From Mixophyes australis (lineage: Eukaryota > Chordata > Amphibia > Anura > Limnodynastidae), in contig JAVHZZ010000008.1 in assembly GCA_036250195.1 (NCBI GenBank), positions 6,271,434 through 6,335,433 of the forward strand: DNA of 64,000 bases, given 5' to 3'. Shown here piece by piece: positions 14,201 through 56,429 of the stretch (within the stretch, counting starts at the first letter, position 1; each line of letters starts with the position of its first letter). The notes beneath the pieces are model-generated. The model was given only the letters and a program-made list of their open reading frames with translations, was not told where the DNA came from and ran no database searches. The position numbers and the translations under genes were made by a program.

Positions 14201-17200
14201 ATCCTGCGTTTGTCCCTGTAGCCAATAGCTAAAAATATTGAGATGCGGCCAGGGGGCTCCCCACCCCGTCCACCTACTTTAAACTGTACCTGTAGTGTAC
14301 ACACATTGGAAAAATCTCCTTATAAATAATAACAATTCTACACTCATCTGTAATAAGTAACAACAGGGGTCACTTACTAACTGCATTCAGGTGCTAACAT
14401 ACACTAAACTGTAGCAAATATTTGCTTGCATTGTGTGACTTAATCTAAACAGATACAAGCTGATTGCTGATTGGTTGCCGTGATCCAGAGCAAACTTACA
14501 TCTAACTGCACCGTTAGTAAATTGTCACAAGTTTGCAAAAACTAAACTTTACTACGAAGTAAAAAATACCTGAGTTTGGTTGTGCAATAACTAAATGTAT
14601 AATCTTGTGAGGTGAAACAACTGAGGACATTGCTGCCTTTAATGAAAGACTAAATTGTGCAATCTCTTGCAGCCCCCCCCCCCTCATACACCCCAAGCCC
14701 CTGGTGTTTTTTCTTTTGTTGACCGGATCCTGGAACTCAGATAAAACTGGAGACACAGCTTGATTACATGTTAATTTTTCCACTAGGCTCCCAAATGAAG
14801 TGGGAACACGTCACCCTGGCGGCGCTCTGGTAGTTGTTTGCAGTATAAGTTTCATGAGACGAAACATAGCTGTAAGCTGCAATCATGGTAAACGGATTTT
14901 CACAAATCTACAATCAAGAGGTTTTTCCAATAAAGAGGAGCTGGCAGAGTGTGCTGGGCTGGCGTGGGCTGGCAGAGTGTGCTGGGCTGGCGTGGGCTGG
15001 CAGAGTGTGCTGGGCTGGCGTGGGCTGGCATGGGCTGGCAGAGTGTGCTGGGCTGGCGTGGGCTGGCGTGGGCTGGCAGAGTGTGCTGGGCTGGTGTGAG
15101 CTGGCAGAATGTGCTGGGCTGGCGTGGGCTGGCAGAGTGTGCTGGGCTGGCGTGGGCTGGCAGAGTGTGCTGGGCTGGCGTGGGCTGGCAGAGTGTGCTG
15201 GGCTGGCGTGGGCTGGCGTGGGCTGGCGTGGGCTGGCAGAGTGTGCTGGGCTGGCGTGGGCTGGCAGAGTGTGCTGGGCTGGCGTGGGCTGGCAGAGTGT
15301 GCTGGGCTGGAGTGGGCTGGCAGAGTGTGCTGGGCTGGCGTGGGCTGGCAAAGTGTGCTGGGCTGGCGTGGGCTGGCAGAGTGTGCTGGGCTGGCGTGGG
15401 CTGGCAGAGTGTGCTGGGCTGGCGTGAGCTGGCAACACAGATGAGAAATTCTCCAACTAACTAGTGCAAAAGACATATGGTTCGTCTACTCCATACAATC
15501 CTTGCTATAATGCCTTTTCCATCTGGCAGTCCCTATGTACTCACATAAAAAGCTCCGCCCCTTTACATGACACCGCTGAGCCGTATACAAATGCTCACGG
15601 TTGCGCTTCTGCGTAGGTTTGTGCTAATTTATCATCCTCATCAATATTTATTTATATAGCGCCAGCGCCATAGCGCTTTACAACTGGGATCAAGCAAATC
15701 AGTCGATTCTGCATTCTATGGTGCGCAAAGCAGAAACCGCAATTTACATTCCTGCCCTCCTCCTAATATAAGACCTTCTAGGAGTTTTACGATTCATTTC
15801 TTTCTTTAACTTAATGCCGAACAGTGAAATTCATGAATAAAGCAGATACAAGCTCTGTGCCTACAACACAATCACACTTTATACGTCTATGTCTCAGATC
15901 TCCGAGTCACAGCTCATTGACTCCGTCGTTAGATAACTCGGGCAGAATTCTTTCAAGCTCTCCTCTTTATGGGAATTGGATCTGGCTGTTTAATTTCCTG
16001 TGTGAACTGTTCCCCACGTGCTGAATACTTACTATGCAGTACGCCACCAAAGCCCCCTGGACGAAGCCCGCCAGCACGTCGGTGGGGTGATGCTTGTGGT
16101 CCGAAACCCGGGACAGCCCTGTGTAGAAAGCCATCATCAGGAGCGTGAATTGCAGCAGTGGGCGCAGTAGGCGGGCTCCTCTCCATGTAAATCTGGACTG
16201 CAGGTAGAACTGCAAAATAAAACCATGTTCTTGTTACATTTACTGTCTGCTTATATAAAACAAGTCATGATAAATATATAATGTCACGTTTCAGTGCAAG
16301 GTGAGTGAAAAACTAACAAAATTTCTTTGGTCATCGCATATATTCTCTGACCTCCTTGGCAGTGAAGCTTACAATTCATAACATGATAGAAACTTTCAAA
16401 TATATCCAGGGTTATAACAAGGTGCAGGAGGGAAACATTCTACAAAGGAAGAGAAGTATTAGAACACGAGGACATGTACTGACACTGGGGGGAAGAGAAG
16501 TATTAGAACAAGAGGACATGTACTGACACTGGGGGGAAGAGAAGTATTAGAACACAAGGACATGTACTGACACTGGGGGGAGGAGAAGTATTAGAACACG
16601 AGGACATGTACTGACACTGGGGGGAAGAGAAGTATTAGAACACGAGGACATGTACTGACACTGGGGGGAAGAGAAGTATTAGAACACGAGGACATGTACT
16701 GACACTGGGGGGAAGAGAAGTATTAGAACACGAGGACATGTACTGACACTGGGGGGAAGAGAAGTATTAGAACACGAGGACATGTACTGACACTGGGGGG
16801 AAGAGAAGTATTAGAACACGAGGACATGTACTGACACTGGGGGAAGAGAAGTATTAGAACACGAGGACATGTACTGACACTGGGGGGAAGAGAAGTATTA
16901 GAACACGAGGACATGTACTGACACTGGGGGGAAGAGAAGTATTAGAACACGAGGACATGTACTGACACTGGGGGTAAGAGAAGTATTAGAACACGAGGAC
17001 ATGTACTGACACTGGGGGAAGAGAAGTATTAGAACACGAGGACATGTACTGACACTGGGGGAAGAGAAGTATTAGAACACGAGGACATGTACTGACACTG
17101 GGGGAAGAGAAGTATTAGAACACGAGGACATGTACTGACACTGGGGGGAAGAGAAGTATTAGAACACGAGGACATGTACTGACACTGGGGGGAAGAGAAG

Positions 17201-20200
17201 TATTAGAACACGAGGACATGTACTGACACTGGAGGGAAGAGAAGTATTAGAACACGAGGACATGTACTGACACTGGGGGGAAGAGAAGTATTAGAACAGG
17301 AGGACATGTACTGACACTGGGGGGGAAGAGAAGTATTAGAACACGAGGACATGTACTGACACTGGGGGGAAGAGAAGTATTAGAACACGAGGACATGTAC
17401 TGACACTGGGGGGAAGAGAAGTATTAGAACAGGAGGACATGTACTGACACTGGGGGGAAGAGAAGTATTAGAACACGAGGACATGTACTGACACTGGGAG
17501 GAAGAGAAGTATTAGAACACAAGGACATGTACTGACACTGGGGGGAAGAGAAGTATTAGAACACGAGGACATGTACTGACACTGGGGGGAAGAGAAGTAT
17601 TAGAACAAGAGGACATGCACTGACACTGGGGGGGAAGTAGGTTCAGAGGAAATGACTTCACAGAAAGGGTAGTGGATAAGTGGAATAGCCTCCCATCAGA
17701 GGTGGTAGAGGATAATAGAGCAATATAAACATGCTTAGGATAGACATAAGGACCTCCTTACAAAGAACTAAGGATCGAATAGGGTTTGAGGTTACAATAG
17801 ATTAAAAAAATGGGGAGACTACATGGGCCAAGTGGTTCTTATCTGCCTTCAAATTCTATGTTTCTATAATGGACATCATTATATAATATTAATAGATCAT
17901 GCAAATATTGCCTAATTTTCACAGTTATGTCTTCACTTCATTTAGTTTTACATCTCAGCTTTGTCAGGGGCGCACGCAGGGTTCCCCCCCCCCCCCCCAA
18001 AAGAAAACATATAGAGAGCAGCTACATTTCGGCGGTACAGTGCCGCTATGTAGGGACACTGTTCTTAGTGGAGGGGAGGGGTTTCTGGAGAACCAAAAAT
18101 TCCCCCTGCGTGTTTGTATAGACACAAACAGGTGACAAAACGTTGTTCTGCAGAATGACTGAGTCTTTTGTGTTTTACTGAACATCTATAGAAAAATAAA
18201 TGAAATTCTCCTCCATAATTTAGCAACATGGTTGCAGGACTTGCTATTACTTTTTATTCATTTGAAATAGAGATCTAGTGAAAGCAATTTTTTCCCTTGA
18301 CACACTGACGCCTACAGAAACCGAACTCTTAATTTAGCTAAAATGACATTTTCTGGCACGGCCGGTGATTGGGAAACGAAGGCCAGAGGCGAACTGAAGC
18401 TGTCACAACTCTGGATGTTGAGACTTGTATATTTCTCGGCCAAAGAAACTACTGTGCAACATAAGATCTCCAATCTTAACCTCCATTCTTCATACATCAT
18501 AGACCGAGAACAATAACTCAGTTCTGTCTCTTACTGTGCATGAGGGACAATTACTCTCCTGATTCTGCTGGCACAGTACCGATTGGTGGACCTAAAAAGG
18601 GGGTGTGGCTTACACCGAAATGGGTGGAGCCTTGTCCAAAAGTGGCCTTTTTGGGAACAGCGTGGGGCCTATTTTATCCTATTTTGCAAGTCTAAACGTT
18701 GGGAGTCGCAAATCTCTCTGGCTGCGAGGTACATTTTTTTTTTTGGGGGGGGGGGGTTTGGAAGGGGATTCACAAGTTATTGGAAATCAGTTTCTTCATA
18801 AATTAAAAATAAATAAAATCAAGACGTTTTCATGAGAGGCGATCTCCTTAGAGTTATATAAAGAAGGAATTTAATCGCTCACAACATGCTCCTTCATTCT
18901 GGATGTTGCATTAAAAACAAAAGCCCAAATTTCATGTGGATTATTTTCTTTCCTTCATTTTTTTAACCTATTAATCTGTACTAGTTGACTAATTATCTTG
19001 TCAAATTAATAACACGCGAGGGAGCCCACACATTGCCCCAAAAACTGCAGTGTATACATAACAAAAAAAATAAAATAAGGCAACGGCTTAGAGTTGTTTA
19101 AAGAAGCCGATCAGGTGACAGCAAAACTTTTATTGTTTATTTTTGTTTCAAATTGTTTAAGTGAGGTCGTCTGTTGTCACCAAAGACCACCTTTACTCTT
19201 GTCAGGCCCCTGGTTGTGGCCATAAAATGCATAATGATTTGGGGTGGGGGCAGGGGGGCAAAAAATATATTGTCAGATGGTCATTGTCCCCTTGTTGTTG
19301 TTTCCGTTTGAACTTTGGCCCGAACCGCTTACTAGGTTCCTGTGGGAACCGTATGAAACAAAGGGGGAAGAGACACAGGAAAATTGAATACTTTCGTCCC
19401 ACGATTCAAAGCCGGCTGTGGGTGACCAGGGTGAGATGAGTGGAACAGGCAGCTTATAAGACCCAATGACATATCACACACCCTTCCTATAGGAAGGAAG
19501 CCGAGGGCCTGGTCTGTCTGACTGTGCGAGAGGTCAGATGTATATTTTTAAGTTGATTCATATATGTCCGGAAACGTACGCACAATACTCAGGGACAAGA
19601 ATTGGGAAATATTACTGTCTGACACTTACATATAGAGAGGGAGAGAGAGAGAGAGAGAGGGAGAGAGAGGGAGAAAGAGAGAGAGAGAGAAGAAGAGAGA
19701 GAGAGGGAGAGAGAGAGTGAGAGAGACAGAGAGAGAGTGAGAGAGACAGAGAGAGAGTGAGAGAGACAGAGAGAGAGTGAGAGAGAGAGGAAGAGAGAGA
19801 GAGATAGGGAGATAGGAGAATATAGGGTAGAAATATAGAATATTCTAACAATGACATCAGACATCACTGTGTACTAGGAAGAGCTCTGCGTTGTATTAAA
19901 ACATGCATTGTCCTCTGCAGGTTGCTCCCTACACAAGAATTAAAATGCACTCATCACCTATACACAGCGGAAGCAGCGATTTTATGAGTTTAGCAAGAGT
20001 CACAATAATGCAGTCTATCAATATAGCACAGTGGCTAGCATTGCAGCCTCACAGCGTTGGGGTTGTGGGTTCCATTCGGACCAGGACTCTCTATCTGTGT
20101 GGAATTTGTATGTTCTCCCCGTGTTCACGTGGAGTGTCCTCCGTGGTGTCAAATTTTCTACCACAGTCCAAAAACATTCTGGTAGGTTAATTGGCCTCTG

Positions 20201-23200: not shown

Positions 23201-26200
23201 TGTACTCCCAAACAACAACTTGTGATGCACTAACCCAGACGTACAGACATGTTCACGGCAGAGGCTGGACATGACGCAGACCCTAAGGACTATTGTCTTT
23301 GGTGGACGTTTGGTGGTATATTTACTAAACTGCCCGTTTGAAAAAGTGGAGATTCTAGCTGTCATTTATTTAGTACATTCTACAAAATGACCAGAATAAA
23401 TTATTAAATTATTTTATTATTCATTACCTAAAAGCCAAAGAGCCGAGGGAGCATGAACACTGAATGATATATAATGTAGAAAATCGTGTTAATCCTACAA
23501 TCTCTACTGTATTACATCCAGGTAACTTCAGACTTACAAGTACTTTTATGTTTGGAATGAGAGGTGATGTGTTACGTTATAATCACTTGTTTGCTTTATC
23601 CAGGTGAATGTCCGTGACAACGACGACTCAAAGCGGCGAATGACTCATTAATATATTAATTAGGAAGCGGATATTATGATTCACGCATAAATCAACAAGA
23701 TAATCTGTTACAAGTAACATCACAACCTTTGCCCTTGTCTCTGACTGTACATAAATCCACAACAATGACCCTTAACTAAAAGATAAACAAGATTTCAGCT
23801 ATGCCAGGCGTGATTTATTCCTAGTCTCTCCCTCTGCCAAATGCAACAACAACATTTCCGGCCGGACAGGTTCTTGTGGTGGCAATATTCCGAAATTAAA
23901 AGTTTGAGCAGCCTCCAGGATTACCCAGTTCTTGCCAAGGGCGCTGATTGGTTACACTCAGCGTTGGCTCATTAAACTGCAGCAGCTTTACAGAGTCTAC
24001 CTGTGTCCCCATGTTTGTGGCCAAAGAGAATTCCTGGCCATGCAACCTATCAGTGACATTGCTGAGACGCAAAGTGCCTCGTGCCTCAATGGTGTTACTG
24101 CTTCCTAGTGAATTGTTACACTGCTGTGCCTCATGCCTCCGCAATGTGTGCTGGTTCCTAGTGAATTGTTACACTGCTGTGCCTCATGCCTCCGCAATGT
24201 GTGCTGGTTTCTAGTGAATTGTTACACTGCAGTGCCTCATGCCTCAATGATGCTAGTGGTGCCTAGTGAATTGCTACACTACTCTGCCTTATGCCTCAGC
24301 AATGTTACTGCTTCCTAATAATTTATTAAACTACAGTGCCTCATGCCTCAATGATATTACTGCTTCCTAGTGAGATGTTAAACTACAGTGCCTCATGCCT
24401 CAATGATATTACGGCTTTCTAGTGAATTGTTACACTGCAGTGCCTGATGCCTCAATGATATTACTGCTTCCCAGTGAGTTGTTAAACTACAGTGCCTCAC
24501 GCCTCACTGGTGTTACTGCTTCTTAGTGATCTGTTAAACTGCAGTGCCTCGTGCCTCAGTGAAGTTACTAGTTCCTAGAGAATTGTTACACTGCAGTGCC
24601 TCATGCCTCAGTGATGTCAGTGGCTCCTAGCTGATAAATAGACGTTACAGTTGTACGCTGGGGTCTTCCTTTCCCACCTCACTTAAAAAAAATGAACTTG
24701 GAATAGTGGTAAATCCTAATAATCATGTTTAAGCCCCATATGTAACTCATGAATGTATATTTTTGTTGTCACCAAAGAAAAAGAAACTGCAACCGGGTTT
24801 CTATAACTAGAACTCACTGTTCAGATTTGGGGAAAATGGAAGTTAAGAAGTTTTTATTTTTTTTTATTTTTTTGTTAAACGGCCAAAACAAAACTTTCAT
24901 TCAGTAACAGAAATAGGTTAAGTTGTGTTTTAATAATGTCGGGGGAAGGAGCTAAGAAAAACAGTTACCTACATGCAGAAGAAAATGATGGTCTCTTTAG
25001 AGCAGCTTAGTTGACTAAATGTTTTCATAGCATTGGGAGCAGGGAGGGAGCTGGAGGAATTGGGGGGGGTCTTACTCTGCCACCGAGAGAAATCCAGCAC
25101 CTTTCCCCTCTAACACCTGCAGCAGGTAATATTTCAAGGCAGAGCAGCTACTAGCCCTGTTCTCAAATCATTTTCCAGACATTGAGCATAAAAAATAAAC
25201 AACTTGACGTAATATTACAACGATTTCTTGTCTTCCACTTTCAGATGACTTTTATTCGTTGCTTTTTACAGGCAAATTTAACTAAATACGCTGCTTTAAC
25301 TTTCTGAATTTCGTTTTCCACCAAATCCTTTATAGAAATGATCAAAGTGGTTACATTATTCATCACCTTTGGATACGACACAGATGTCCTCTGCCTACTG
25401 GATACAATTGTGACTTCCAGGCAGGTTAGTTTTATTTTCATCCCCCTTAGACGTGACAACATATCTGCTGCATAGGCTCAACAGCGCCCAGTGCAGGGAC
25501 CTATATTCATCTGTTCTAATATACAAGGATAACCACAAATAAACAGCGGGCAAGAGAATTGCAGAAGTTTCCATTTAAAGTGGTCTTAAGGCGATTTAAC
25601 TAAAACCCAAAGTCCCCCCTGAGCTGCCGTCCAAACACATGGCTGTAAAACTGGTTTATATGAAATGAATGTAACTTACCACCAAATACAGCATGGTGTA
25701 CATGGAAAAGGAGGCGTGCCCGGAGAAGAAGGACTTTCTGTAACATAAAGGTTATATAAGATAAGAATAGACATTCCTTGGACTTTAGACAACGTTTATC
25801 AGATTGTGCAAGCGCTGACTCATCGCTTTATCAAGCTATAAATCATGGAATAAGTGTAGACGGGTCCATTGGACAAGTATACAGTGAGCGCACATTAATC
25901 AGATCAGATAAACCTGGAAAACAGGCAGAGATAGCGACTCTGATGGAGGAGCGCGGTGCGTGATACACAAAGCTTCACGTTGCACAGATCAATTTCAGAC
26001 ATTTTGGTAACGATTTCTATATATGACGGCAAAAGTAGGGAAATGAAAACGGATCCGCTTCGACTAAAGAACTGTTTTTTAAAAAAAATTATTCGTATGG
26101 TACACTCACAATAGTATACAAATATCTCAGAACAGATGTAGGTGACCTGGCGAACTACAATTCCCAGCAGCATCTAGCCGAGAGCCAAAGGTATTTTGAA

Positions 26201-29200
26201 TCTTTTTTTTTTGGCATGGGAACATAACAGAGAAATTGACATTTGTAAAAAAGAAACGCACCTGGCTTCAGTAACTTTGCTCTCCGGCCCCCGACAGGTA
26301 TAATCCTCGATGTATCTTCCGGTACAATTGAGCAACGTGATATCTGGGTCACAGACAGCCAGGAAATGGGGCCGCAGGCGTCCGATAGACACCTTGGCGA
26401 TGTCCGTGAAGGATTGGCTTATGGCGCAGCCAAATAGGAAGCACCCGACCTGTTTGTATAGGGCGGCCACGTAGGGATTGCGGATGAACGAGTAAGACTT
26501 CACTTTCAAGTAATAGATTCGGAAGAATTCTCCAACAATGATCTGCGGAAAACAATGGGGCGAAATTAGAGAGAGGAAAGGCAGAGCAGTAACACAGTCA
26601 TTGCACTAATTATTCTTCATGTACCTTTGGGCTAAAAGCAACGTCAAAGTGCGTTATAATTGACTGCGTTATTGTATTGACCAGTGTATTGCAATGTACT
26701 ATGTCTTATTTTCTGAGCTGTTTGTGCATTATAAACTCTTTATTTCGTCATCAGCAAAGTCTTTTATAGAACACAATGTATTGTAATTGTGTTCTTTTTG
26801 CCGCCAAATAAATTCACTTTGTGGGGATTATTTAAGAATACAACAAGCTCCCACGTAGGTTATTACAACTTGTAAGAAATTAAAGTTTATTCAGATTATT
26901 CAGTCACCCGTGAACCAAAATCGCTTCCATGGTTGTCTTTACGGAGGGGGGGGGGGGGGGGGGGTGGGAATAATACAATTATAATACATTAAAGCTGTTC
27001 CACCCTCTTAACTAAGATATCAGCACATGGTGGGGGCAGCAAAGTTGGAACTGCTGAGGAAATAATACAGTGGGTTTATTCTCGACCCCTTTGAAAAGTT
27101 TTCCAGTCATTAAGTCTTATTTACACATGAATGCAGTAAATCTTGATAAACCAGTCATCGGTTGTTTTCTCATGAAGCAATTTTAGTTTGGCAGCGCGGG
27201 GTCTGTTTGTATACCACAGCGTGCGCCGGGAGAGAGCAAATCTTAGTATTTAAATGAGGGTATGAACGATGACAAGGGTGCGATAGTGGGAAAATGATCT
27301 ACATAAACCACAGTCTTTGGATTACTAAGCGATGGCCAAATTCATGGTCTGGTTTAGGATTCAGTAACAGATTTTAGAGAGATTCGTGGAAAAGTGGAGG
27401 TGTTGTCCGTAGCAACCAATCAGAATCCAGCTCTCATTTTCTAGAATGTACAAGATGAAAGAAAGCTAGAATCTGATTGGTCGCCATGCACAATTTAGCA
27501 GAATTCTCTATGACAGGATTTGGTATTAAACCTCATCCTCAGACATGGAATTGGTTCCATGGTGATCAGCATTTTGATAATATAGTATTTAAATGCCTGA
27601 CATAGCTCCCACATTACTAGGTCTCCTAAGCAGATGTTAAACAATTGCTGAGTCGCACGTCATTTTTATCCTCTCCACTGTGCATAACCCCTGATCCGCA
27701 GGGACCACAGTAAATTTTTAAATAATGGACGTCACAGCAGGCTCCTCGCCATAAATCAGAGCTATGATCTAAAGAGAGAATTCTCTCATCACTTTGGAAG
27801 GGCGCATAATTAAAATCAGACTGCAACGTGATGACCAACTGTCTCTGAGTACAGGACCGGAGCCTAAATCGCTCACGGTCACACGATGGCTCCTCTCTGA
27901 ACTACAAGCTGCCAGTTTTACAGAAAATGGCGATATTTGTGTATCGGTGCCAAACATTCTGCTTTTGTTTGTTTGTGTTGCTGTCGCGGCACGAATACTA
28001 TAGACGCGCCATTTTTGCAACTTTGTAAGCCCTGTACATTATAGTAGTATACAGTATTTATTTTTATTTATAATGCGTGTGTTTTGTAGGAGAGAAAGGC
28101 TAACATGGAGGGGTCAAATGAATTCGGAATACAGACAATTTCCAGGGGTAGATTTATCAAACCTTTGTTGCCCAAAGTAACCAATCAGAGTCTAGCTATC
28201 ATTTTTTAGAATGAACTAGATAAATGAGAGCTGGAATCTGATTGGCTGCTATGGGCAACACTTCTACTTTTCCTTTTCAGAAAGCTTGCTACATTTACCC
28301 CTTGAGACCAGAATGTACCGAACTCCGTATTATTACATATCTGTATGAATTGTACTATAAATGTCTTAAAATCTGAATATTGTTCAATGCATCCCCGTTC
28401 TATTATTTTTTGCCACATAATCAAACACTACTGGAGACAAACATTATTTTTGGTGGGACTGAATCAATATTCAGCTGTCACTAGCAACTAGCGAACCGAT
28501 GCGATTCTGTATTTACGGGAATAGTAGCTCCGCCCACAAAGTGACGGTTAGAATCTACGCAGTCAATATTGATGCATTCAAAAAAACCAGACAAACACAA
28601 AAATTTATAGGACTTGTAGAACTATTTTTGCCTAAGAATATAAATGTGTATAGTTATAAATACCATAATATAAAAATAAACGAGTTTGTAATGCACTAGC
28701 GCTCTGATTTAGCATCAAGATGGCAACTACAAGTTCCATGGCGTTGAAAGAATGTCTTTTAAATGTCTGTAAGTAAAGGGTGTTGATACACTGTTTATCC
28801 GTGTTTATTTTACTCTGACGTTCCCATCTCTCTTTCCTTATCTGCCACAACCTGTGTTGGTGGTCTTAATGATTACACAGATGTAGCAAGCTGTAAAAGA
28901 ATTAATTGGAGAATTAAGTCTCCGCCAATTAACCGTCGTGGAGTGTTTTCTATTTTGGTAAGAAAAACAGATCCCAAATAACAGACGTCCATGTTGTATT
29001 GAACGTCGGGGTAGAAAAGACCCTGATTCTTCACAGATGTAACTGGTGTTAGGTGGCAATTATCTCAAAATTGGATGTAATTGTCCATTATCAGCTAAAT
29101 GGTACTTGAGCATCTTTTAGAATTACTTCAACATCATTTTGGAAATGTTTATTCGCAATAAAAACCGTAAGCTCTTTGGGGAACTTTCATAACTTTCTAT

Positions 29201-32200
29201 TATTATACTGTATGTGTGCTGTAATCTCAATTTTCTATTACACAACAGTGGCAATAATATTGAACTAAAAAAACAATAAACTTTAATGGTGATATGTGTT
29301 CTGATTGAAACTCCCAAGCGAAATAATTTTTGTTTAAGATAAAACAAATTTATTAATGACTTCAGTAACTTTCAATAACTTTAACAATGACCCGGGGAAT
29401 TCACCCGATTGCCATTTTGTGTTTGAATGACCTCATACCCACCGGTGTTTTAACCAGTGTTCGGCTACATTGCGTATGAGGGTGTTTGTATAAAATCCAC
29501 CAATCAGGTATTAGGAAATGAGGCCTAAGTACCTGATAGGTGGATTATATACAAATATAAGTAGAAAATAAAAAGCGGCTTTAAATTTCACACACTTAAA
29601 AAACAACTCCTCACTTATATGATCTGTAAGATAACACAGAAAATTGAGATTACGGGCAGATACGACAGTGGATATACAATAAACGTGAACATTTTTAACA
29701 TGAAATATAATCTTTAAGGGGACAGGCAAAGAGCTAACACTGGGGCCTGAGCCCGAGATAAATTCATATATGGAAGAAAAGGCAAATTCCCAACACGATG
29801 CGAAAGCAGATAATGCAGTATAAATCAGTAGTAATTAAAAACAGATACACATAAAACAGAAATAAGAATAATTGCTTCCAGAAATGTCGGAGAAAAGAGG
29901 GGGGTGAACTCTGTGCTGTTGAATAATATTAAATGTGGTGCGTGGCTTGAGAAATGTTTTTGAAAATCCCAATATATTATATTCCTGTACATCTATCTCT
30001 GACTTACCACATGCTAGTGACTTTAAACTACAAGTAACTTGTGTGCACAGAGGGGTTTGTGAATAATATGGGAGGGTATGAAGGGGTGATAAGAGTTATA
30101 GGATACAATGGGGTGAGCTAGGTCAAGATACAAGTAGCTGTGAGTGTGTGTCTATATTAGGAGCAGGGACTGAATGAGTTCTCTGTACAGCGCTGCGGAA
30201 TTAGTGGCGCTATATAAATAAATGATGATGATGATGATGAAAATCTGGAGTCAGGTTTGGGGGAGACTGTAAAATTATAATGTGTCATTATATTGTGTAT
30301 CTAAGTGATTTTAAGCACCCAACAGAAGACAGCTCAGCGTAAATGTTCTTAACCTCCTGTTGGACCCAGATTGTATCGGTCAATCCGTTTTACATTCCAT
30401 ATTTAACCAGTAATGGATTATGTACTTCTGTTTAATTGTTTAATTTTGGTCTACTTAAGTATAGTATCCTTAATGAATACAGGAGATTGGGACCGTGTAC
30501 AAAATATTAATATTAAAGTAAGATTAATAATGATTTTTATTACTGGTACAACCCATTTACAAAATAAAGCAACATGGCAAATCTAGAAGACATCGCCGAC
30601 TGTCTGTGGTCCAGGCTGATAGGTTAAGAACACTTTGCCGCTGTGTTTGGAAGACAACTGAATGCAACAATAACAAAAACAAACCAAAAAAAACCCAGAA
30701 GAGAATATTGGTAAATGACAGGTAACACACTTACAGCAAGGATGGAAATGATTATACCAACAACAGTTAGGACAACATCATTAATTGTCTCTCCAGATTT
30801 GCTGGGGTACTTGATACTTTCATCGTCACAGTAAAACCCCCGGTGATATGGTTGGATTTTATTAGATTCAATAATCATGAAAGGAAGGCCAGCTAGCGAA
30901 AGAGCGAGAGAGGGAGAGAGGGAGAGAGACAAGAAGAAAATAATGTCAATGCACAAGGTAATGCACATAAAATCAAACACCGAAGCACAGCACGGGCCGC
31001 CCGGGGCGATGCAACCTTTTCTGACGGTAATGACGTTTCCTGCGCGGATTGTAAGAAGGTGCACGACACAGTGCCGGCGCGTCCTCCCGCCACCTGCGCA
31101 GAAGACGTCACTACTTTAAGAAGTTTGCATGGACTCGGGGCAAAGCCGGGCGCGGTGTCGTACATTTCACTTACAGAAACCAGCGTCACCAACACCCCAA
31201 ATGAAAGGAGCAGTGGGATAGACACAGTGCTTTTCTGAAACTCATATCTGATGCTCTGATCACTGCAGAAAAACCCCCGCTGACGGGGCAAGATTAGAGA
31301 CGTGCAGTTCATCACCGCTGCAGGGGCAAACGCTGTCGGGATAAATGGTGAAAGGTCACGATTACAAAGCACTCCCACAAGACCGCTACTTACTAAGGCT
31401 GACTTATCACAATCTATTGTTTGATTTGGTTTTAACAATGGCTTCCCCCCCCAATTAATGATATAAAAATGTGTCTTCTGTTACCAACCATGCAAAGGCC
31501 ACTAATGGAACATTTAGTAGGTTGAGAACGCTGCCCTCAATTTATTAATTATGCACTGTTTCATTCTATGATATTTTTTGGCCTATTAAAGGCCCGTGCA
31601 CACATAAGTGCTGAGAAAATGGGTAAAACGCGTGAAAACTGATTTGGTGGGTTTTTGTCATGCATTATTAACGCGTTTTGCACCGTTAATTAGCAGCTGA
31701 TAAGTGCATTAGTAACGGATATGTGTGAACGTGCCCATGGTGTATTGTGAATGATAACAAATTAGCATTGTCCTTTAATTGCCAATAGTTTTCCAATTAA
31801 AAAACACCAGAATAGAGTGTAATGGGTGAGGGGCAATAACACTATTGTGCATCCCATGCTAATTGGCCAAACCACCGGTGATCATGGTAGCACTTCCTTA
31901 ACCAACTTCCCTTTAAATTATCATAAAATTGGTCAAATTAAATATTAAAACTAATATATTTACTGTATCCCTTCCTACTGTTGGGCTCGTTAGTCATAAT
32001 ACCAAGTTATAAGCTGTATTCCAAAATGACTATTCTATGCAGCCTCTTGAAGCATGAAACTGAAAAATAGGGACAACATTTTAGCTACTCAACCTATAGC
32101 AAAACATTGATGGCACGGAAGCATCGCATTGGTCAATGGGTTTAATCACGCTTCCTGTTCAACTTCTCTTGTCAATGGGATCATTAGAAAAGTTTACACA

Positions 32201-35200
32201 CATTTCCTCTTCAAAACAAATACATAACTTTTTCCCATCAAGTTAAAAAACAAACATAAAAACAAATGTTTAAAAACAAAACATAAAAGTGAGATTTTGG
32301 ATAGAATAGAAAGTTAGGAAAAAGGTTTACTCCTCTGACACATTACATAACAACCATAAACTAGCACTGAAAGGCGAATAATATATATATTTATGTTGCG
32401 GACAGGCTGACCTCCTAGACTTAGGATATCTTACATATAAACCTCGCTCTATTTCACTCCCTAAACATTCTAGAACTCCGCCAACTAAACTAAGTTCTAC
32501 AACTTGACGTGATCCAACCAATCGCAGGACAGGAGCAGCGAAAAACAGCTTAACCAGTGTCTGTGGGAATGCCACTTACGTGGCTTAGTGTCATTACTAT
32601 TATATTAGGTCCAGGCTCTTCTCCAAATGATTTGCACATGACAGATCTGTGGAACACATGTTCCTATACATAGTGTTAGTGGAATGTTAACCACTTAATC
32701 TCTGGCAGAGGCTTGCACGTGACAAAGCCGGCACATGTCATAATATAACAGGGCAAGCCATCTAATCCGTTTGTTAGCAGAAGAGTTGCCGATGGAAGAG
32801 GTTAAGTATTTTCAGATGTGACCATAAGAGACTGGAGGATCTTTATTCATTGATCCAATAAAGTGGCTGACGGGGATTTAGCTATCAGTTACCATGAGGT
32901 GTCCTTGAGATTTAAATGGAATATCCCTGGATTTTCCTTTCAATTTAGATGTCCTATAATTGTTTTGTTTTTTTTGTTAAGTTAAACTTGTGGTCTAAAT
33001 GGGATATGTTTAATCCAATACAGAATAACCTCAAAGATTTAAAAAAAAAATCCCCCATAACCAGGAAAAAAATATATCCAGTTGATGCCAGTGGTCGTAG
33101 AGGTATTATTGTAAGGAATGGCTGCCTAGGAAGGCGATTTCTACAGCTGTTATCTGAAGATTTATCTTGATGAACCAAGAGTTTCAAAACATTTACATTA
33201 GTGTCTCTAATTTACAGGAAAGTTTGGGCATCATTCTGCAACAAATTATTAATCATAGTCTAACAACTATCTTTACCTGTCCTGTGTTATGTATACAGCA
33301 CTGGGCAGTGCTGGTGGGAGGTATCCTTAACGAATAACAAAATCAAGGGGTAACGAACAGTACACAAATTATGTTTACTTCAACCGGAGTATTGGCATAG
33401 CTGAGAGACGCTTTCTTTAATGCCACCACTGGGTGGCACTGTTCTGTTGCTGTCTGCATACGATCATTTAATTTGCATAGGTATAGAAAGATATATGGCA
33501 GCTCCCACTCTACTAATAGCATATGGTCAGAGAAGATTGGGGAAATAATGTTTAACTGTCCATTTCTTAAAACATGTTTAGAAATGTTGCAATATGCGGC
33601 TTAGAAGGGTTGATGTTCTCCGTCATCTCTCCCTCGGGGGAGGAGAAGCAGTCTAATAGCTCTGGCTTACGTGATAGGCTCGAAGTCAGCTAGTTAACAG
33701 ACGGGCTATGTATAGATTGGTTGCTCTATACACAGTGATGGCACGTACAAATTTAAAGGTTAAATAACTGACATGCTATGCTTTACAACTTGATCTTTTG
33801 TCGTATATTATAAGACTTGTTCAAGAACCATAGAATCTGCTTTTTTTTTTTTTTTTTTTAAATTGGGTGGGACATGACACACTCCATCACACCCCACCTT
33901 GAAATAAAGTTGCAGAGTTGCTCCTTATACTATCAGGTGATTCTGCTTTCAACACGGAACGATTTACTGACAGCCAAAGACAGGTTAATGGTGCTCGGTT
34001 TAGACTAATCTTCACATGGCAATGGTGATGGAGCATGGAAATTTCTCTTTAATATTTAGTAGCATTTTAATTTTGGGAGCCGGGCCAGTGACTTAAAGGG
34101 GGGGGAGGGATTGTTGCCGACCTGTATAGAAGCGTTTCCTGGTATGTGATACTAGACTTAGACTCACACAGTAAATATTATGATTTCACGCATTTGCCAG
34201 AGTTGCTATTTTAAGCAGTTAAGGGCTACTGGTCTTGGGGTACGTGTAAACCTCATTTGGTTTGCAATATGCGCTCAGATTATTGAAAGTGGCTGCCAGC
34301 CAAAGGGACTGAAAACTGAATGTCTTATTTTCTGTTTGGGACTCTTTGAAGCTGCAGCATTTAAGGAATGATGTCTGCGCACGACACCTCCGCAGAGCTA
34401 CCACCCTGCCAGTGTTATTAAACAGCAGTTACACCTATAAAATGATTTGTGGGTCCAATTAATGTGTTCATATATTTATTCTAAACCGTCTATATTTGCG
34501 CTTTTCATCTGAAATAGTCTTGGCTTCCCCCCGTCTCTTAACGTAAAAATATATAAAAGTTACTTAAAAGAAACTACGACAACTAAAAATATGCTTTTCA
34601 ATGGTTTAGGGGGAATGGTTTTATTTCTGCACTCACTTCCTAACCAGTTTCAAACTTTCAGATAGTGGCCTCTGTAAACTAAAGGCATCTTGTGTTTAAA
34701 AGGGGCTTCGTTTGAGCTCTCAAAATCAGATCAGAGCACCTATAGCGTACACGCAGCAGAATAAACCATATTGTGTGGAGCAAATTCATGAGAGCAGCCC
34801 AGACATTCATTAGGGAGCAGTGCACCATCAAAGGACAACTCCTTAAAGCATGCCCCCTCTGCACAGAAAACAGGGAGAGAGATACCCCCACCGCCCAGCC
34901 TGCCAAGAACTGTCATGTGCTAGATGTCTTTGCCCTGGCTCTCCAAAAGCTCTTTGGAGCCGGGGAAAATGAGCAGCTGTCCAATCCCCTGGATTCAAGT
35001 AATAATGGCTTACCCTGCAAGGAGGTGTCTATATGTTGTACAGGAATGATATCACTGGTTGCTAGTGAAGTGATTGGCTGCATTCTCAGTGATGTCACTG
35101 GTTCCTAGTGACTGGATAGGCTGCACTCTCAGTGATGTCACTGGTTCCTAGTGAATGGATAGGCTGCATTCTCAGTGATATCACTGGTTGCTAGTGAAGT

Positions 35201-38200
35201 GATTGGCTGCATTCTCAGTGATGTCACTGGTTCCTAGTGAAGTGATTGGCTGCATTCTCAGTGATGTCACTGGTTCCTAGTGACTGAATAGGCTGCATTC
35301 TCAGTGATGTCACTGGTTCCCAGTGACTGGATAGGCTGCATTCTCAGTGATGTCACTGGTTCCTAGTGACTGGATAGGCTGCATTCTCAGTGATGTCACT
35401 GGTTCCTAGTGAATGGATAGGCTGCATTCTCAGTGATGTTACTGGTTCCTAGTGAATGGATAGGTTGCATTCTCAGTGATGTCACTGGTTCCTAGTGACT
35501 GAATAGGCTGCATTCTCAGTGATGTCACTGGTTCCAATTGAATGAATAGGCTGCATTCTCAGTGATGTCACTGGTTCCTAGTGAATGGATAGGCTGCATT
35601 CTCAGTGATGTTACTGGTTCCTAGTGAATGGATAGGCTGCATTCTCAGTGATGTCACTGGCTCCTAGTGACTGGATAGGCTGCATTCTCAGTGATGTCAC
35701 TGGTTCCTAGTGAATGGATAGGCTGCATTCTCAGTGATGTTACTGGTTCCTAGTGAATGGATAGGCTGCATTCTCAGTGATGTCACTGGCTCCTAGTGAC
35801 TGGATAGGCTGCATTCTCAGTGATGTCACTGGTTCCAATTGAATGAATAGGCTGCATTCTCAGTGATGTCACTGGTTCCTAGTGAATGGATAGGCTGCAT
35901 TCTCAGTGATGTCACTGGTTCCAATTGAATGAATAGGCTACATTCTCAGTGATGTCACTGGTTCCTAGTGACTGGATAGGCTGCATTCTCAGTGATGTCA
36001 CTGGTTCCTAGTGACTGGATAGGCTGCACTCTCAGTGATGTCACTGGTTCCTAGTGACTGGATAGGCTGCATTCTCAGTGATGTCACTGGCTCCTAGTGA
36101 CTGGATAGGCTGCATTCTCAGTGATGTCACTGGTTCCAAGTGAATGGATATGCTGCATTCTCAGTGATGTCACTAGTTCCTAGTGAATGGATAGGCTGCA
36201 TATAAAGTGATGTCACTGGTTGCTAGTGAAGTGATTGGCTGCACTTTTATTGAAATTGGTTCAGTTTTAAAATAGCCACAAGTACAAATAATTTTCTGTA
36301 CCAGGCACTAGTACATTTTTCATATCATTCTCACGTTTGTAAAAGTACATTATGCTTCTATGGCCCCACGCTGGAGGCAAAATAGAACATTCACTATTAT
36401 TTTATGCTCTTAAAACCACAATGACAGCTCCCACGTTCTAGATTGCCTGAGAAAAAGGATTGTGGTAAACAATCTTAAAACGGCAACGACAGTTTCTAGA
36501 AAACCACCAGCTGTATGAGAACAGGAGAGCGGTATTCTGGTCTGACACTTATACTCATACGATCGTGGGACTTAGTGTACACAAGATTATATCTGTCAGC
36601 TTGTTTGTGGCCAGTTATGCTGATCTTTATCTTGGTGTTTACCTTAATAGTAAAATGTTTTCAGTGTTTTGCTGCTACTTATAATTCAATATTATCCTTT
36701 CTTTGTTTACTATTGCGCTGTGTTTGGAAAACTTGATATATACTGATATAATAAAATTGTTACAATATGACAAGGTGTGTGCAGGTAATTGATTTACACC
36801 CTTAGAAGAAATGTAATCTTAAATCTTAAAAGAAATGGAATGATAACGACCTTATTCATGAAAGTGCGCAAAGTTATGAGAGATGTTAATACTGGATTAT
36901 TATTTTTTTCCAGCATTAGTAAATATCGCTTTGCAAACTATGAACTGACACACTGTATGATTCTAGGTTACAGTAAAACCTTCAAGGATAATTTCATCCA
37001 AAACTGAAAAGTGCAACCAGGTTTCAAAATCTTCCTTAACTGGGGTCCAACGTTCAGGACCCCAGTTCAGGATGTCCTTCTGCTGGTCCACTAGTATTGT
37101 TGGTGGACCAAACGCTACACCACTAAAAAAAAAGAGATGGATCGGCAGGAGCAAGCAGATTGTGGTGGGGAGCTCTCAGGATAGCCTGAATGCTGAATCC
37201 TAGGGATGTCACCCTTTTCGACCCAATTGTGCTTAGGATATTACATCCATTTTCAGTTTGTGGTGGATTTGTGGCCTGCGGGTCAATATGGTGATTTAAG
37301 GAGAGGGGGGGGGGGGAGTTGGTTGTAGTCTAGAACTTAAGAAGTGCTTTGTAAGCCCACGGCAATGTGGTACACCCCAAAATGCTTCAGCCAGCCCCCC
37401 CTCCCCCCAATGCGTAACAACTCTCCCTGTCCCGATTTGCAAAGTGACAATGTCGTGAGGTAGGAAAACAACCTGTAACATCTCAGCGTCCAACTTGTAA
37501 CAGCAGGAAAACCTGGATAGTCCTCCAAAACTGGGACTATTCTAGGAAAGTTGGGACACCTTGAGGCAGCTGGAGAGGATGTGGGCTAGAAAGGAAACAG
37601 TAAAGTAAATAGCTGCATGCACTCGTGGAAAAAGTGGCTGTAAGTTGGATGTTAAACGAATAAATGTGAGTAACTGGTGACAAGAACACTTTAAAGCAAA
37701 GCAAAACGCTCAATGTCTTAACGCTAAAAGCCTTATTTAAAATACTTCTGATATTTAACAGCGGTGCCGGCTCCACAGCCAAGTTTAAGGACAGTATCAA
37801 ATTGCGCAAGACTTTTTTTTTAACAGTTGATTTCCGTAGCTGTAACGACATCTCTGAAACTCGTAAAAGGCCAATAATTGTAAACACAGCTTTAAATGCC
37901 GGTCTGCAGTGGAAGTCGTTCCATAAATGACTGGTTGATGTAATATTACGATTAAGCCGAATCCCAGGATGGGATAGCAAAGCAAAAAAAAGATTTATGT
38001 ATCTTCTATGTGCAATTGGAACTTCTACAACCAACTCCGTCAATGTTTCTATTGTGGACGCAGAACTTCAGTGCAGAGTGCTGCCACCTGCATAAACAGC
38101 GGACTCGCACTGAATGGGCATCAAGGCTCAAACCCTGGAACCGTCGTCGGTTAAAGGGGGGGAAAAAAAAAAAAGGAAATATTTGGCATGTTTCTACTAA

Positions 38201-56200: not shown

Positions 56201-56429
56201 GCAACAGGGTTATACTGGTGAGTGACAGCCCTCCTTGCATTGAACCGAGCATGCAAACGGTAAAGAGAGAAAATAGGGATTGTTGCTCACCTACTACAAG
56301 GCAGAATAGGTCCAGGAAGATTAGGAGAATCCTCTTGCAGTTCCCAGTGCCATTGTTGTTGTTTAAAGTTGTACTGCCCCCGTTCCTGCCCTCTGGTGCC
56401 ATGGCTTTGTCATATTTGTAGTTCTGCAT
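8141..56429 (-). CDS. PLPP3: PLPP3, phospholipid phosphatase 3 (six-exon gene, span of coding region)
   Basis: Integral-membrane lipid phosphate phosphatase that dephosphorylates lysophosphatidate, phosphatidate, sphingosine-1-phosphate and ceramide-1-phosphate at the outer face of the plasma membrane (family knowledge). The six exons, all joined by GT/AG sites, total 924 nt (139+158+281+58+177+111), giving 307 residues plus stop; the human protein has 311. The N-terminus [14 protein letters not shown] and the end of the tail [10 protein letters not shown] identify PLPP3 rather than PLPP1 or PLPP2. The three PAP2 motifs are intact: C1 K149-x6-R156-P157, C2 S198-G199-H200, C3 S245-R246-x5-H252-x3-D256. 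A sequon lies at N171-C-T in the second outer loop. The dityrosine Y109-Y110, reported as a sorting signal in human LPP3, is kept. The human RGD is replaced by RGP at 183-185 (approx.). Six membrane segments are expected. An alternative exon 2b lies in intron 1. The ATG is the family start and has A at -3. Confidence 0.97.
8485..8795. mobile_element. Foldback MITE, GGGCCTGATTCA ends
   Basis: Inverted ends GGGCCTGATTCA and TGAATCAGGCCC, with further complementarity inward (aagtaagtaaaa versus ttttgtttactt). The flanking trinucleotide AAT is present on both sides. It lies 234 nt from the exon 6 acceptor, within intron 5. Confidence 0.75.
9600..9813. mobile_element. hAT-type foldback MITE
   Basis: Ends AGTGTTTCCCAAACTCAGTC and the complement GACTGAGTTTGGGAAACACT, with arms continuing through cacaggtg...cacctgtgctccagcaagga. 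The flanking octamers gtatagac and ttgtagac match at six of eight positions, compatible with a decayed 8-bp TSD. Confidence 0.75.
11642..12224. mobile_element. Composite hAT-like nonautonomous element with 8-bp TSD
   Basis: Ends are perfect 14-bp inverted repeats, CATACTTGCCAACT and AGTTGGCAAGTATG. Flanks are perfect 8-bp direct repeats AAATAACT (11,634-11,641 and 12,225-12,232); 8-bp duplications fit hAT-type insertion. An internal second end-like sequence, catagttgcctactctccca, begins at 11,941, so the unit looks like two related elements fused and moved together. No transposase coding. Confidence 0.85.
12712..12800. repeat. Single degenerate unit of the 43/52-bp repeat family
   Basis: Reads catgcctcagtgaggttact, ggcaaccagtgagttgataa, then gttgcgtttttattggttca. 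The last part matches the sequence that follows array 2 (gctgcacttttattgaaatt, ggttcag), so both sit in related flanking DNA. Confidence 0.55.
14940..15436. repeat. GC-rich 28-bp minisatellite
   Basis: Unit ctggcagagtgtgctgggct plus ggcgtggg, with interspersed 10-bp sub-repeats ctggcgtggg. Because the unit is free of stops in several frames, long ORFs (up to 197 residues) appear on both strands; they have no family resemblance and are treated as artefacts. Confidence 0.95.
15628..15692 (-). mobile_element. L2-type 3' tail fragment
   Basis: Short minus-strand relic: tatttatttatatagcgcca followed by gcgccatagcgctttacaac, matching the LINE/SINE tail signature. Confidence 0.6.
16033..16209 (-). 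CDS. PLPP3: PLPP3 exon 5 (residues 213-271, catalytic motif C3)
   Basis: A 177-nt exon, phase 0 at both ends, acceptor ttttgcag, donor gtaagt. It encodes [20 protein letters not shown] followed by [11 protein letters not shown] and motif C3, [12 protein letters not shown], where His252 is the expected phosphohistidine nucleophile and Asp256 its partner, then [12 protein letters not shown] of the last membrane segment. It is very close to the mammalian protein. Confidence 0.97.
16446..17636. repeat. 44-bp minisatellite (about 27 units)
   Basis: Unit attagaacacgaggacatgt, actgacactg, gggggaagagaagt. Very homogeneous; differences are mainly G-run length and a few substitutions, for example gaacaggagg at two units about 132 bp apart. 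The last unit runs directly into the retroelement remnant. Confidence 0.96.
17637..17870 (+). mobile_element. LINE ORF2 C-terminal remnant and 3' end
   Basis: One frame reads [20 protein letters not shown] followed by EVVEDN, the characteristic C-terminus of vertebrate non-LTR retroelement proteins, then degrades into stops. The 3' part (atgggccaagtggttcttat, ctgccttcaaattctatg) is a dispersed repeat end. It directly abuts the 44-bp minisatellite. Confidence 0.65.
19634..19812. repeat. GA-rich microsatellite
   Basis: (GA)n with a superimposed pattern gagagacagagagagagt. Ser/Leu-rich ORFs read from the minus strand are artefacts of this repeat. Confidence 0.93.
20024..20330 (+). mobile_element. 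tRNA-headed SINE, diverged
   Basis: Same family as the copy at 4.9 kb: cacagtggctagcattgcag head, B-box-like GTGGGTTCCATTC, body block tgtgtggaatttgtatgttc, and tail ctgtacagcgctgcgtaatg with ggcgctatataa. More diverged than the other copies, so older. Confidence 0.8.
24040..24640. repeat. 52-bp minisatellite sharing the 43-bp core (about 11 units)
   Basis: Unit of roughly 52 bp: tgcctcatgcctcaatgat, attactgcttcctagtga, then ttgttacactgcag. The section CAATGATRTTACTGCTTCC-TAGTGAATT corresponds to the core of the 43-bp family, while the rest is different. Units are more diverged than in the 43-bp arrays. Confidence 0.88.
25680..25737 (-). CDS. PLPP3: PLPP3 exon 4 (residues 193-212, catalytic motif C2)
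   Basis: A 58-nt exon, the family's usual size, too short to show as an ORF. Acceptor gttacag, donor gtaagt. It completes Arg193 and encodes [19 protein letters not shown], which contains motif C2 (SGH, 198-200); the histidine is the general acid/base-type residue of the PAP2 active site in family knowledge. Confidence 0.97.
25738..26261 (-). other. PLPP3 intron 3 (524 nt)
   Basis: Short intron between exons 3 and 4. Near 26,151-26,170 it carries ACTACAATTCCCAGCAGC, similar to the ZNF143/STAF-type element found in dispersed vertebrate repeats. Nothing else recognisable. Confidence 0.8.
26262..26542 (-). CDS. PLPP3: PLPP3 exon 3 (residues 100-193, catalytic motif C1)
   Basis: A 281-nt exon, acceptor ttccgcag and donor gtgcgt, phase 0 in and phase 2 out (Arg193 is split AG|A). 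It encodes [20 protein letters not shown] with the YY pair at 109-110, then the near-invariant [17 protein letters not shown], catalytic motif C1 ([10 protein letters not shown]149 to P157), and the second outer loop with [20 protein letters not shown]. That loop carries the N-glycosylation sequon NCT at 171 and reads CRGPES where human PLPP3 has CRGDDS. Confidence 0.97.
27385..27505. mobile_element. Foldback MITE, partial copy
   Basis: Core only: cgtagcaaccaatcagaatc and aagctagaatctgattggtc. Outer ends are eroded. Confidence 0.6.
28145..28301. mobile_element. Foldback MITE with CCAAT/X-box-like arms
   Basis: Ends GGGGTAGATTTATCAAA and a near-complement CTACATTTACCCC. Arms contain gtaaccaatcagagtctagc and gctggaatctgattggctgc. 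Same family as the copies at 38.66, 27.4 and 5.6 kb. Confidence 0.78.
30130..30241 (+). mobile_element. SINE tail fragment
   Basis: Only the 3' part: gagcagggactgaatgagtt, ctctgtacagcgctgcggaa, tggcgctatataaataaa and a GAT triplet tail. The tRNA head is absent. Confidence 0.75.
30735..30892 (-). CDS. PLPP3: PLPP3 exon 2a (canonical, residues 47-99)
   Basis: The exon matching mammalian PLPP3: [20 protein letters not shown], then [19 protein letters not shown], then [14 protein letters not shown]. It completes membrane segment 1, forms outer loop 1 with the family signature [12 protein letters not shown], and most of membrane segment 2. The acceptor (ctag) follows a very long CT-rich tract; the donor is gtaagt. 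It is 158 nt, phase 1 in and phase 0 out. Confidence 0.97.
30893..30940 (-). promoter_or_regulatory. CU-rich splice-control tract before exon 2a
   Basis: On the transcript strand this is an almost pure pyrimidine run made of CUCUCU/CCCUCU blocks (30,898-30,935) leading into the ctag acceptor of exon 2a. It gives 2a a strong acceptor; CUCUCU blocks are also the binding preference of PTB proteins, known repressors at mutually exclusive exons. The regulatory role is inference. Confidence 0.4.
30893..31174 (-). other. Short intron between exons 2b and 2a (282 nt)
   Basis: Separates the alternative exons. It contains the CU-rich tract at its 3' end and a CpG-rich middle (31,000-31,160), and no further coding signal. 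ORFs running through it in both directions are read-through from the exons or chance. Confidence 0.8.
31175..31332 (-). CDS. PLPP3: PLPP3 alternative exon 2b (mutually exclusive with exon 2a)
   Basis: A second exon-2 copy. The acceptor is ...tatcccgacag and the donor gtaagtgaa. The 158 nt equal exon 2a exactly, entering in phase 1 and leaving in phase 0. Joined to exon 1 it encodes [16 protein letters not shown], then [16 protein letters not shown], then [20 protein letters not shown] and S, without a stop. RGFxCxDxSIxY is the loop-1 signature shared by LPP proteins, and the pattern RGFFC...STV resembles the alternative exon 2 of PLPP1 as known from its two isoforms. It would replace the end of membrane segment 1, outer loop 1 and membrane segment 2. 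Its polypyrimidine tract is weak compared with exon 2a. Frame, length, splice sites and family motif all point to a working exon; expression cannot be seen here. Confidence 0.85.
31591..31736. mobile_element. Foldback MITE upstream of exon 2b
   Basis: Imperfect inverted ends GGCCCGTGCACACATAAG and ATATGTGTGAACGTGCCC about 260 nt upstream of the exon 2b acceptor. No coding content. Confidence 0.5.
35047..36244. repeat. 43-bp minisatellite, array 2 (about 27-28 units)
   Basis: Same 43-bp unit as the array at 0.8-1.45 kb, here inside intron 1. A 3-unit (129-bp) pattern of variants is repeated between about 35,560 and 35,820. It ends at gctgcacttttattgaaatt. Confidence 0.95.
38659..38843. mobile_element. 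Foldback MITE with CCAAT/X-box-like arms, best copy
   Basis: Ends GGGGTAGATTTGCTAAAT and GTAAATTTGCCCC. Arms gttgcccatagcaaccaatc and gattggttgctatgggcaac are mutually complementary, predicting a long hairpin. An A-run separates the left end from its arm. Confidence 0.8.
38943..39331 (+). mobile_element. tRNA-headed SINE, full length
   Basis: Complete from ggcagcacagtggctcagtg to the (GAT)n tail. A partial internal duplication around 39,165-39,240 repeats the segment gttagggaattttagactg, so this copy is longer than the others. Confidence 0.87.
39420..39885 (+). mobile_element. L2/CR1-type LINE 3' end fragment
   Basis: CT-rich stretch followed by ttagattgtacgctcctttg, ttgtacggcgctatggatac, tttgtggtgccctataaata and an A/T-rich triplet tail. 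This is the same 3' end type as the LINE at 2-3.9 kb. No RT coding is retained. Confidence 0.7.
40878..41451 (+). mobile_element. tRNA-headed SINE split by a nested insertion
   Basis: Head gggtggctcagtggttagca to about 41,123, then a 272-bp foreign segment (41,124-41,395), then the tail resumes at aatctgcacaacgctgcgta through aactatataaataaatac. The SINE is also internally shortened. Confidence 0.8.
41124..41395. mobile_element. hAT-like segment nested in a SINE, 8-bp TSD, internal hairpin
   Basis: Flanked by identical CTACATAT octamers at 41,116-41,123 and 41,396-41,403, and it interrupts the SINE. The right end (gggagagtaggcaagtat) matches the family at 11.6 kb; the left end does not match it. 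A perfect 19-bp inverted repeat, AAATTCACAGCATTGAATA and its complement, sits inside near 41,213-41,294. Confidence 0.7.
43723..44093. mobile_element. Truncated copy of the composite hAT-like element
   Basis: Starts CATATTTGCCAACTCTCC and follows the 11.6-kb copy closely, including ctgatgctgagccagtacaa, gacacagttcagaaattgtg and the internal join ctttaacgcatagttgccta, then stops at about 44,093. The right end and its TSD are absent. Confidence 0.8.
45770..46975. repeat. 76-bp minisatellite in intron 1 (about 16 units)
   Basis: Unit cactacacccccaacatgac, ctgaccactggacatgatca, taatacaattctattacact, ctatacagacatagga. Highly similar units; a variant with cccctggacatgatcc occurs twice about two units apart. 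Confidence 0.95.
48036..48363 (-). mobile_element. tRNA-headed SINE, full length
   Basis: Minus-strand copy: the tail (atcatcaccatttatttata, tagcgccactgattccgcag) comes first and the head ends at 48,363 (caccgtgctgccgc). Close to the 49.9 and 59.8 kb copies. Confidence 0.87.
49348..49402 (-). mobile_element. L2-type 3' tail fragment
   Basis: Short minus-strand relic, aatcctcatcatttatttat followed by atagcgccaacatattctgt. No head or body remains. Confidence 0.5.
49881..50222 (+). mobile_element. tRNA-headed SINE, full length
   Basis: Head ggccgcacggtggctcagtg, body, and tail gcgctatataaataaatgg plus TGATGATGAT. A and B boxes are recognisable. Confidence 0.87.
50832..51135 (+). mobile_element. 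tRNA-headed SINE, tail cut short
   Basis: Head cagcacggtagctcagtggt to tggtggcgctat; the final taaataaatga tail is missing, so the 3' end is truncated. The tail half is more degraded than in neighbouring copies. Confidence 0.82.
56291..56429 (-). CDS. PLPP3: PLPP3 exon 1 (residues 1-46, start codon)
   Basis: Coding part of the first exon. It begins at the ATG at 56,429-56,427 and encodes a cytosolic N-terminus, [14 protein letters not shown] followed by an Asn-rich stretch (NNNNGTGN), then [15 protein letters not shown], the start of membrane segment 1. The exon ends after the first base of an Ala codon (phase 1) at a gtgagc donor. Both candidate second exons (30,892 and 31,332) begin with two bases that complete this codon to alanine. 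The frame continues open a short way into the intron, which is chance. Confidence 0.96.

Follow-up and report, generated by a model that had tools for sequence, protein, structure and literature searches.

PLPP3 encodes an enzyme that breaks down the lipid signals LPA and S1P. The locus analysed here raises the question of whether a frog PLPP3 gene carries, beside its usual exon 2, a second copy that can take its place and, if so, where this copy came from and what it would change in the enzyme. We use 'window' for the whole stretch of DNA analysed (64,000 nucleotides of Mixophyes australis). An earlier note on this sequence had proposed a second, mutually exclusive exon 2 at 31175-31332. From the sequence comparisons below, we consider it highly probable that this block serves as a functional exon (2b), used in mutual exclusion with the canonical copy and swapping part of transmembrane segment (TM) 1, outer loop 1 and part of TM2. 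An origin by one old tandem duplication is probable.

The PLPP3 gene and its two copies of exon 2

The whole PLPP3 coding region is contained in the 64-kb window, on the minus strand, in the order exon 1, 2b, 2a and exons 3 to 6. The encoded protein includes a PAP2 domain (Pfam PF01569, E 2.1e-26) with catalytic motifs in exons 3, 4 and 5, which we take to be those named C1, C2 and C3. Attribution to PLPP3 rather than to PLPP1 or PLPP2 is given by phmmer (E 2.6e-142 with human PLPP3, against 6.4e-81 with PLPP1 and 9.8e-75 with PLPP2). Over exons 3-6, the nearest of nine species compared is Pseudophryne corroboree (identity 0.94). The features are as follows:

56291..56429, minus strand: PLPP3 exon 1, coding part, 139 nt, ending in phase 1 (...GTAGTAG, then donor GTGAGC)
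31175..31332, minus strand: alternative exon 2b, 158 nt; acceptor CCCGACAG, exon start CG, exon end GTTTCT, donor GTAAGT; encodes TM1 (outer half), outer loop 1 and TM2 (first half), with helix limits as predicted in the model of a homologue
30893..31174, minus strand: intron between 2b and 2a, 282 nt
30895..30934, minus strand: CU-rich tract ahead of the 2a acceptor, 40 nt with 16 CU motifs and a pyrimidine content of 93%
30735..30892, minus strand: canonical exon 2a, 158 nt, donor GTAAGT, 282 nt downstream of 2b
26262..26542, minus strand: PLPP3 exon 3, 281 nt, catalytic motif C1 (K...GRLRPH)
25680..25737, minus strand: PLPP3 exon 4, 58 nt, catalytic motif C2 (SGH)
16033..16209, minus strand: PLPP3 exon 5, 177 nt, catalytic motif C3
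8141..8251, minus strand: PLPP3 exon 6, coding part and stop, 111 nt

Both copies of exon 2 are 158 nt long, run from phase 1 to phase 0 and are bounded by AG and GTAAGT; 2b joins exon 1 in phase 1 and exon 3 in phase 0. When the window was searched on both strands for an AG followed by 158 nt open in phase and a GTAAGT, exactly two sites were returned, 2a and 2b. The open block with AG acceptor, GTAAGT donor and the phases of 2a was thus correctly described in the earlier note. That it is open by chance can be ruled out, since the full pattern occurs in the window at these two exons alone and the sequence is conserved elsewhere.

Exons 1, 2b and 3-6 together encode 307 amino acids, as do exons 1, 2a and 3-6. 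If both copies are included, a stop is encountered at codon 105 and, if neither is, at codon 111. The reading frame would therefore enforce the one-of-two choice that had been proposed: each PLPP3 transcript would take either 2b or 2a, and transcripts with both or neither would presumably be cleared by nonsense-mediated decay.

The two copies are only distantly similar. In the window, 13 of 45 aligned residues are identical (16 to 21 of 44 or 45 in nine other frogs), and across the ten frog species the identity of 2a and 2b within one species ranges from 0.29 to 0.47. Their equal length, also pointed out earlier, is real but in part a coincidence; each has an extra codon at a different place: 2b of the window and of the other advanced frogs compared has NCTS or NSTS where Bombina, Discoglossus and Ascaphus have NTS, while the single extra codon of 2a is located elsewhere.

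As far as the accessible accounts of them go, OGDH 4a/4b, SNAP25 and PKM resemble the PLPP3 pair in having homologous neighbouring exons and a one-of-two choice. The PLPP3 pair is unlike such vertebrate pairs (for example, OGDH) in the position of its best branch-point-like site, a TTGAC that precedes the 2a acceptor by 54 nt and lies about 228 nt away from the 2b donor, with an AG-free zone of 123 nt. At this distance steric exclusion (by a short intron or a distant branch point, as in OGDH) is not expected, and we consider it unsupported. The CU-rich tract before 2a has no counterpart in the 40 nt before the 2b acceptor. As a guess, this tract is a candidate PTB-type regulatory site, and control might then be exerted by PTB-like proteins.

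Exon 2b in other species

The earlier note had suggested searching other species with the exon 2b peptide, and homologues were found in frogs, coelacanth and teleosts. A protein search gave eight matches to the 2b region, all of them PLPP3 isoforms of frogs and 61-87% identical over the region. A profile built from five frog 2b peptides gave 301 protein matches, and the species counts rest on the best 120 of these 301. Among the matches listed, 2b is present in PLPP3 of at least 19 named frog species, a range that takes in Ascaphus, Bombina, Discoglossus and Xenopus as well as many advanced frogs. It also occurs in PLPP3 of Latimeria (coelacanth) and of teleosts (for example, Ictalurus, Brienomyrus, Denticeps and Fundulus), and at least two hagfish proteins among those listed include a 2b-like exon. 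Leptobrachium has RGFSC where others have RGFFC, so that a scan for the RGFFC pattern missed its 2b. Two caecilian PLPP3 proteins among the matches listed (Geotrypetes and Microcaecilia) have 2a. The matches listed, which are proteins and not genomes, include no 2b in a named amniote (reptile, bird or mammal), salamander or caecilian PLPP3.

Exon 2b is already included in the automatic annotation of frogs, coelacanth and catfish, mostly under the name 'PLPP3 isoform X2', which is the same exon as 2b of the window. The frog rows are automatic models and speak for transcription only indirectly; the catfish evidence, described below, is better. The proposal of a second in-frame exon 2 is borne out, with a coding sequence conserved in frogs, coelacanth and teleosts. 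The exon had been described as 'kept here'. It is indeed kept, but this understates its distribution, as it is widespread in frogs, present in fishes and already annotated automatically.

No published description of an alternative exon 2 of PLPP3 was found in the literature on splicing of these genes (most subscription journals were outside the scope of the search). One mouse-cell paper matching a search for PLPP3 splicing has nothing on such an exon in the accessible part of its text. The kind of system, a pair of alternative exons, is already known. What may be new here is the recognition that frogs, coelacanth and teleosts have 2b in common, that it is probably a homologue of the PLPP1 switch and that amniote PLPP3 has possibly lost it.

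Origin of the exon pair

PLPP1 (LPP1/LPP1a) has a homologous pair of exons in the same place and in the same order, with an STV/RGFFC-type exon upstream of an LPF-type exon. The PLPP1 variant exon with a similar RGFFC...STV pattern, mentioned in the earlier note, is probably homologous to 2b. The pair belongs to a different gene, and the loop and TM2 sequences differ. Two segments of exon 2 occur together in 15 proteins, many of which are read-through gene models; 2b precedes 2a in 12 of the 15, in PLPP3 and PLPP1 alike. The other three are P0039, in which a PLPP1 2b is followed by a truncated 2a-like segment, and P0027 and P0028, which are self-repeats.

Shared residues were compared in a set of 57 rows hand-picked from 148 proteins together with three human rows and the window, with 2a and 2b labels assigned by eye. 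LPF and [DE]T are present in all 22 rows of 2a type (PLPP1, PLPP2 and PLPP3) and in none of the 25 PLPP1 or PLPP3 2b rows, all 25 of which have [SGN]T; these two diagnostic columns were picked out after reading the sequences. One 2b-type fish row of PLPP3 in a wider set (P0114) lacks [SGN]T. In coelacanth and teleosts, 2b is present in both PLPP1 and PLPP3. Mainly because of the same exon order and the shared residues, we think it probable that the pair derives from one tandem duplication before the PLPP1/PLPP3 split, 2b then being kept in frogs, coelacanth and teleosts.

Separate tandem duplications in the two genes, with the likeness due to convergence or gene conversion, are rather unlikely in view of the common order, of residues that unite 2a of all three genes to the exclusion of 2b, and of the presence of 2b in both genes of the same fishes. 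The trees leave some room for them. In the tree of 57 rows, the 2a exons of the three genes are grouped (support 83/94) and all eight invertebrate rows lie outside this group, one of them (Plakobranchus, on a long branch) inside the PLPP3 2b group. A reduced tree, which left out Galemys PLPP1 2b and the invertebrate, hagfish and PLPP2 rows, raises the support of the 2a group to 94/94; holding 2a and 2b of PLPP3 together in it gives a tree 2.6 log units lower, with an AU p of 0.316. In a tree of 98 rows, for which the careful search was unfinished, support for the 2a group is 73. Here identical segments were entered once, the hagfish row P0056 was moved out, and no window or human rows were used; 24 entries were skipped, including the hagfish P0052 (for short ends, an unmatched core, a missing or ambiguous constant part or unclear type).

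The cleanest of the duplication tests is a comparison of three four-group topologies with these 98 rows and 53 columns. Its AU p values are 0.634 with one ancient duplication, 0.365 with independent duplications (2.2 log units lower than the ancient duplication) and 0.416 with a crossed arrangement. Unconverged quick trees were also compared, in a first part with these 98 rows. Those in which PLPP3 was held together scored higher than the free one (p 0.764 and 0.644), the constrained trees exceeding it by as much as 10 log units; the quick trees thus do not discriminate. The earlier note had placed the duplication before the PLPP1/PLPP3 split and had suggested a tree of exon-2 peptides. Exon order and the two diagnostic positions speak for that date, and the best trees do group the 2a exons, but the AU tests reach no decision.

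The eight invertebrate rows of the 57-row set have LPF in none, [SGN]T in six and [DE]T in two. Since these rows lack LPF, mostly have [SGN]T and fall outside the 2a group, 2b may be the ancestral, invertebrate-like exon and 2a, the exon of the human PLPP3 record, the derived one. Amniote PLPP3 would then have lost 2b and, with it, a switch for tuning substrate use that is retained in frogs, coelacanth and teleosts. We offer this tentatively, and put it at slightly less than an even chance.

Use of exon 2b and the protein it would encode

An exon of this kind might serve mainly in regulation. Joint inclusion of 2b and 2a would give an unproductive transcript and hence less PLPP3 (a poison-exon role), in keeping with the early stop in that combination and with a length that is not a multiple of three. 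We consider this improbable, given that the open frame of 2b and its RG..C.D core are kept from fish to frogs and that an in-frame product is available from catfish. This catfish row (P0037) is a 302-residue frame in which 2b is joined to exons 3-6 without 2a. It is carried by six contigs, each of at most 2833 bases, and is identical, letter for letter, to part of a channel-catfish isoform (P0036). The short contigs and the exact containment make it very likely that P0037 is a transcript; we infer that it represents RNA rather than a processed gene copy. A further row, P0044, comes from blue catfish and stands in UniProt with no genome contig; its source is likely to be the full-length cDNA project for that species (PMC2902525).

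Conservation was measured in 45 pairs from ten frog species that have both exons, with about 45 residues compared. Identity averages 0.73 in 2b, 0.80 in 2a and 0.88 in exons 3-6, and in 37 of the 45 pairs it is lower for 2b than for 2a. It is very improbable, however, that 2b is a decaying relic, annotated since it is open but little used, as this lower conservation and its absence from the named amniote, salamander and caecilian PLPP3 proteins among the matches listed might suggest, for the open frame and core motif are retained in frogs, coelacanth and teleosts and the splice sites are intact in the window.

As a functional alternative to 2a, 2b would leave the catalytic core in place (the catalytic motifs of exons 3-5 are the same in both isoforms) and exchange the stretch from the middle of TM1 through outer loop 1 to the middle of TM2. 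A change in the TM1/TM2 region and outer loop 1 had been anticipated, and this agrees with the predicted helix limits: 30-57 and 85-110 in the 2b isoform (Bombina) and 29-56 and 85-110 in the 2a isoform (Pseudophryne). These limits are from AlphaFold models of low confidence (mean pLDDT 66-67); a single mixture of 2a and 2b rows, in which 48 of 148 proteins were aligned, served for both. The closest PDB matches of the 2b-isoform model are to human LPP1, with an rmsd of about 14.5, and its packing is poor, so that the helix limits alone were taken from the models. In phmmer, the solved structures of human PLPP3 (25qp) and PLPP1 (9l0i, 9l0o and 9l0u) match the 2b isoform as homologues along almost its entire length. 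According to the alignments, exon 2 is of 2a type in both, unlike that of the 2b isoform.

The PLPP1 splice form LPP1a differs from LPP1 in exon 2. The two forms are reported to differ on S1P and FTY720-phosphate: according to a review (PMC7564803), S1P seems to be handled more efficiently by LPP3 and LPP1a than by LPP1 and LPP2, and FTY720-phosphate is converted by the former two and not by the latter two. By analogy with LPP1a, the swap in PLPP3 could be expected to affect substrate handling, and we see about an even chance that it alters substrate preference or the access of lipids at the outer leaflet.

Exon 2b of the window also encodes an N-x-S/T sequon (NCT, at 31301-31309) near the predicted end of TM1. 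Such a sequon is present in 10 of 17 sampled PLPP3 2b rows and in none of 15 PLPP3 2a rows. Within the 57-row set, nine of ten 2b rows of frogs have it, as does that of Latimeria; the corresponding residues are N-K-C in Xenopus and N-T-A in Leptobrachium. Most frog PLPP3 2b exons and that of coelacanth differ in this from the eight PLPP1 2b rows examined, which are without it. In the Bombina model the sequon (N56) lies at the end of TM1 (helix 30-57), probably too near the membrane, which weakens extra N-glycosylation as the main role of 2b. If the site is indeed too close to be glycosylated, its conservation in 2b is unexplained.

If the switch is real, PLPP3 of frogs and fishes exists in two forms, and results obtained in mammals, which show no such isoform among the matches listed, may not transfer to them. 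Exons 2a and 2b would also provide naturally swapped segments for locating the part of the enzyme that sets lipid preference.

The window contains several other elements. An open frame of 570 residues at 2374-4086 on the minus strand includes a reverse transcriptase domain (PF00078, E 3.1e-39) and marks an element of LINE type that lies downstream of the end of the PLPP3 coding region. A tandem repeat with a 43-bp unit (the same up to rotation) forms two arrays, one in PLPP3 intron 1 (35047-36243, 27.8 copies) and one beyond the coding end (776-1448, 15.7 copies). Further intronic minisatellites are located at 16447-17633 (44 bp, 27 copies), 45756-46973 (76 bp, 16 copies), 24073-24617 (52 bp, 10.4 copies) and 14938-15434 (based on a 28-bp unit).
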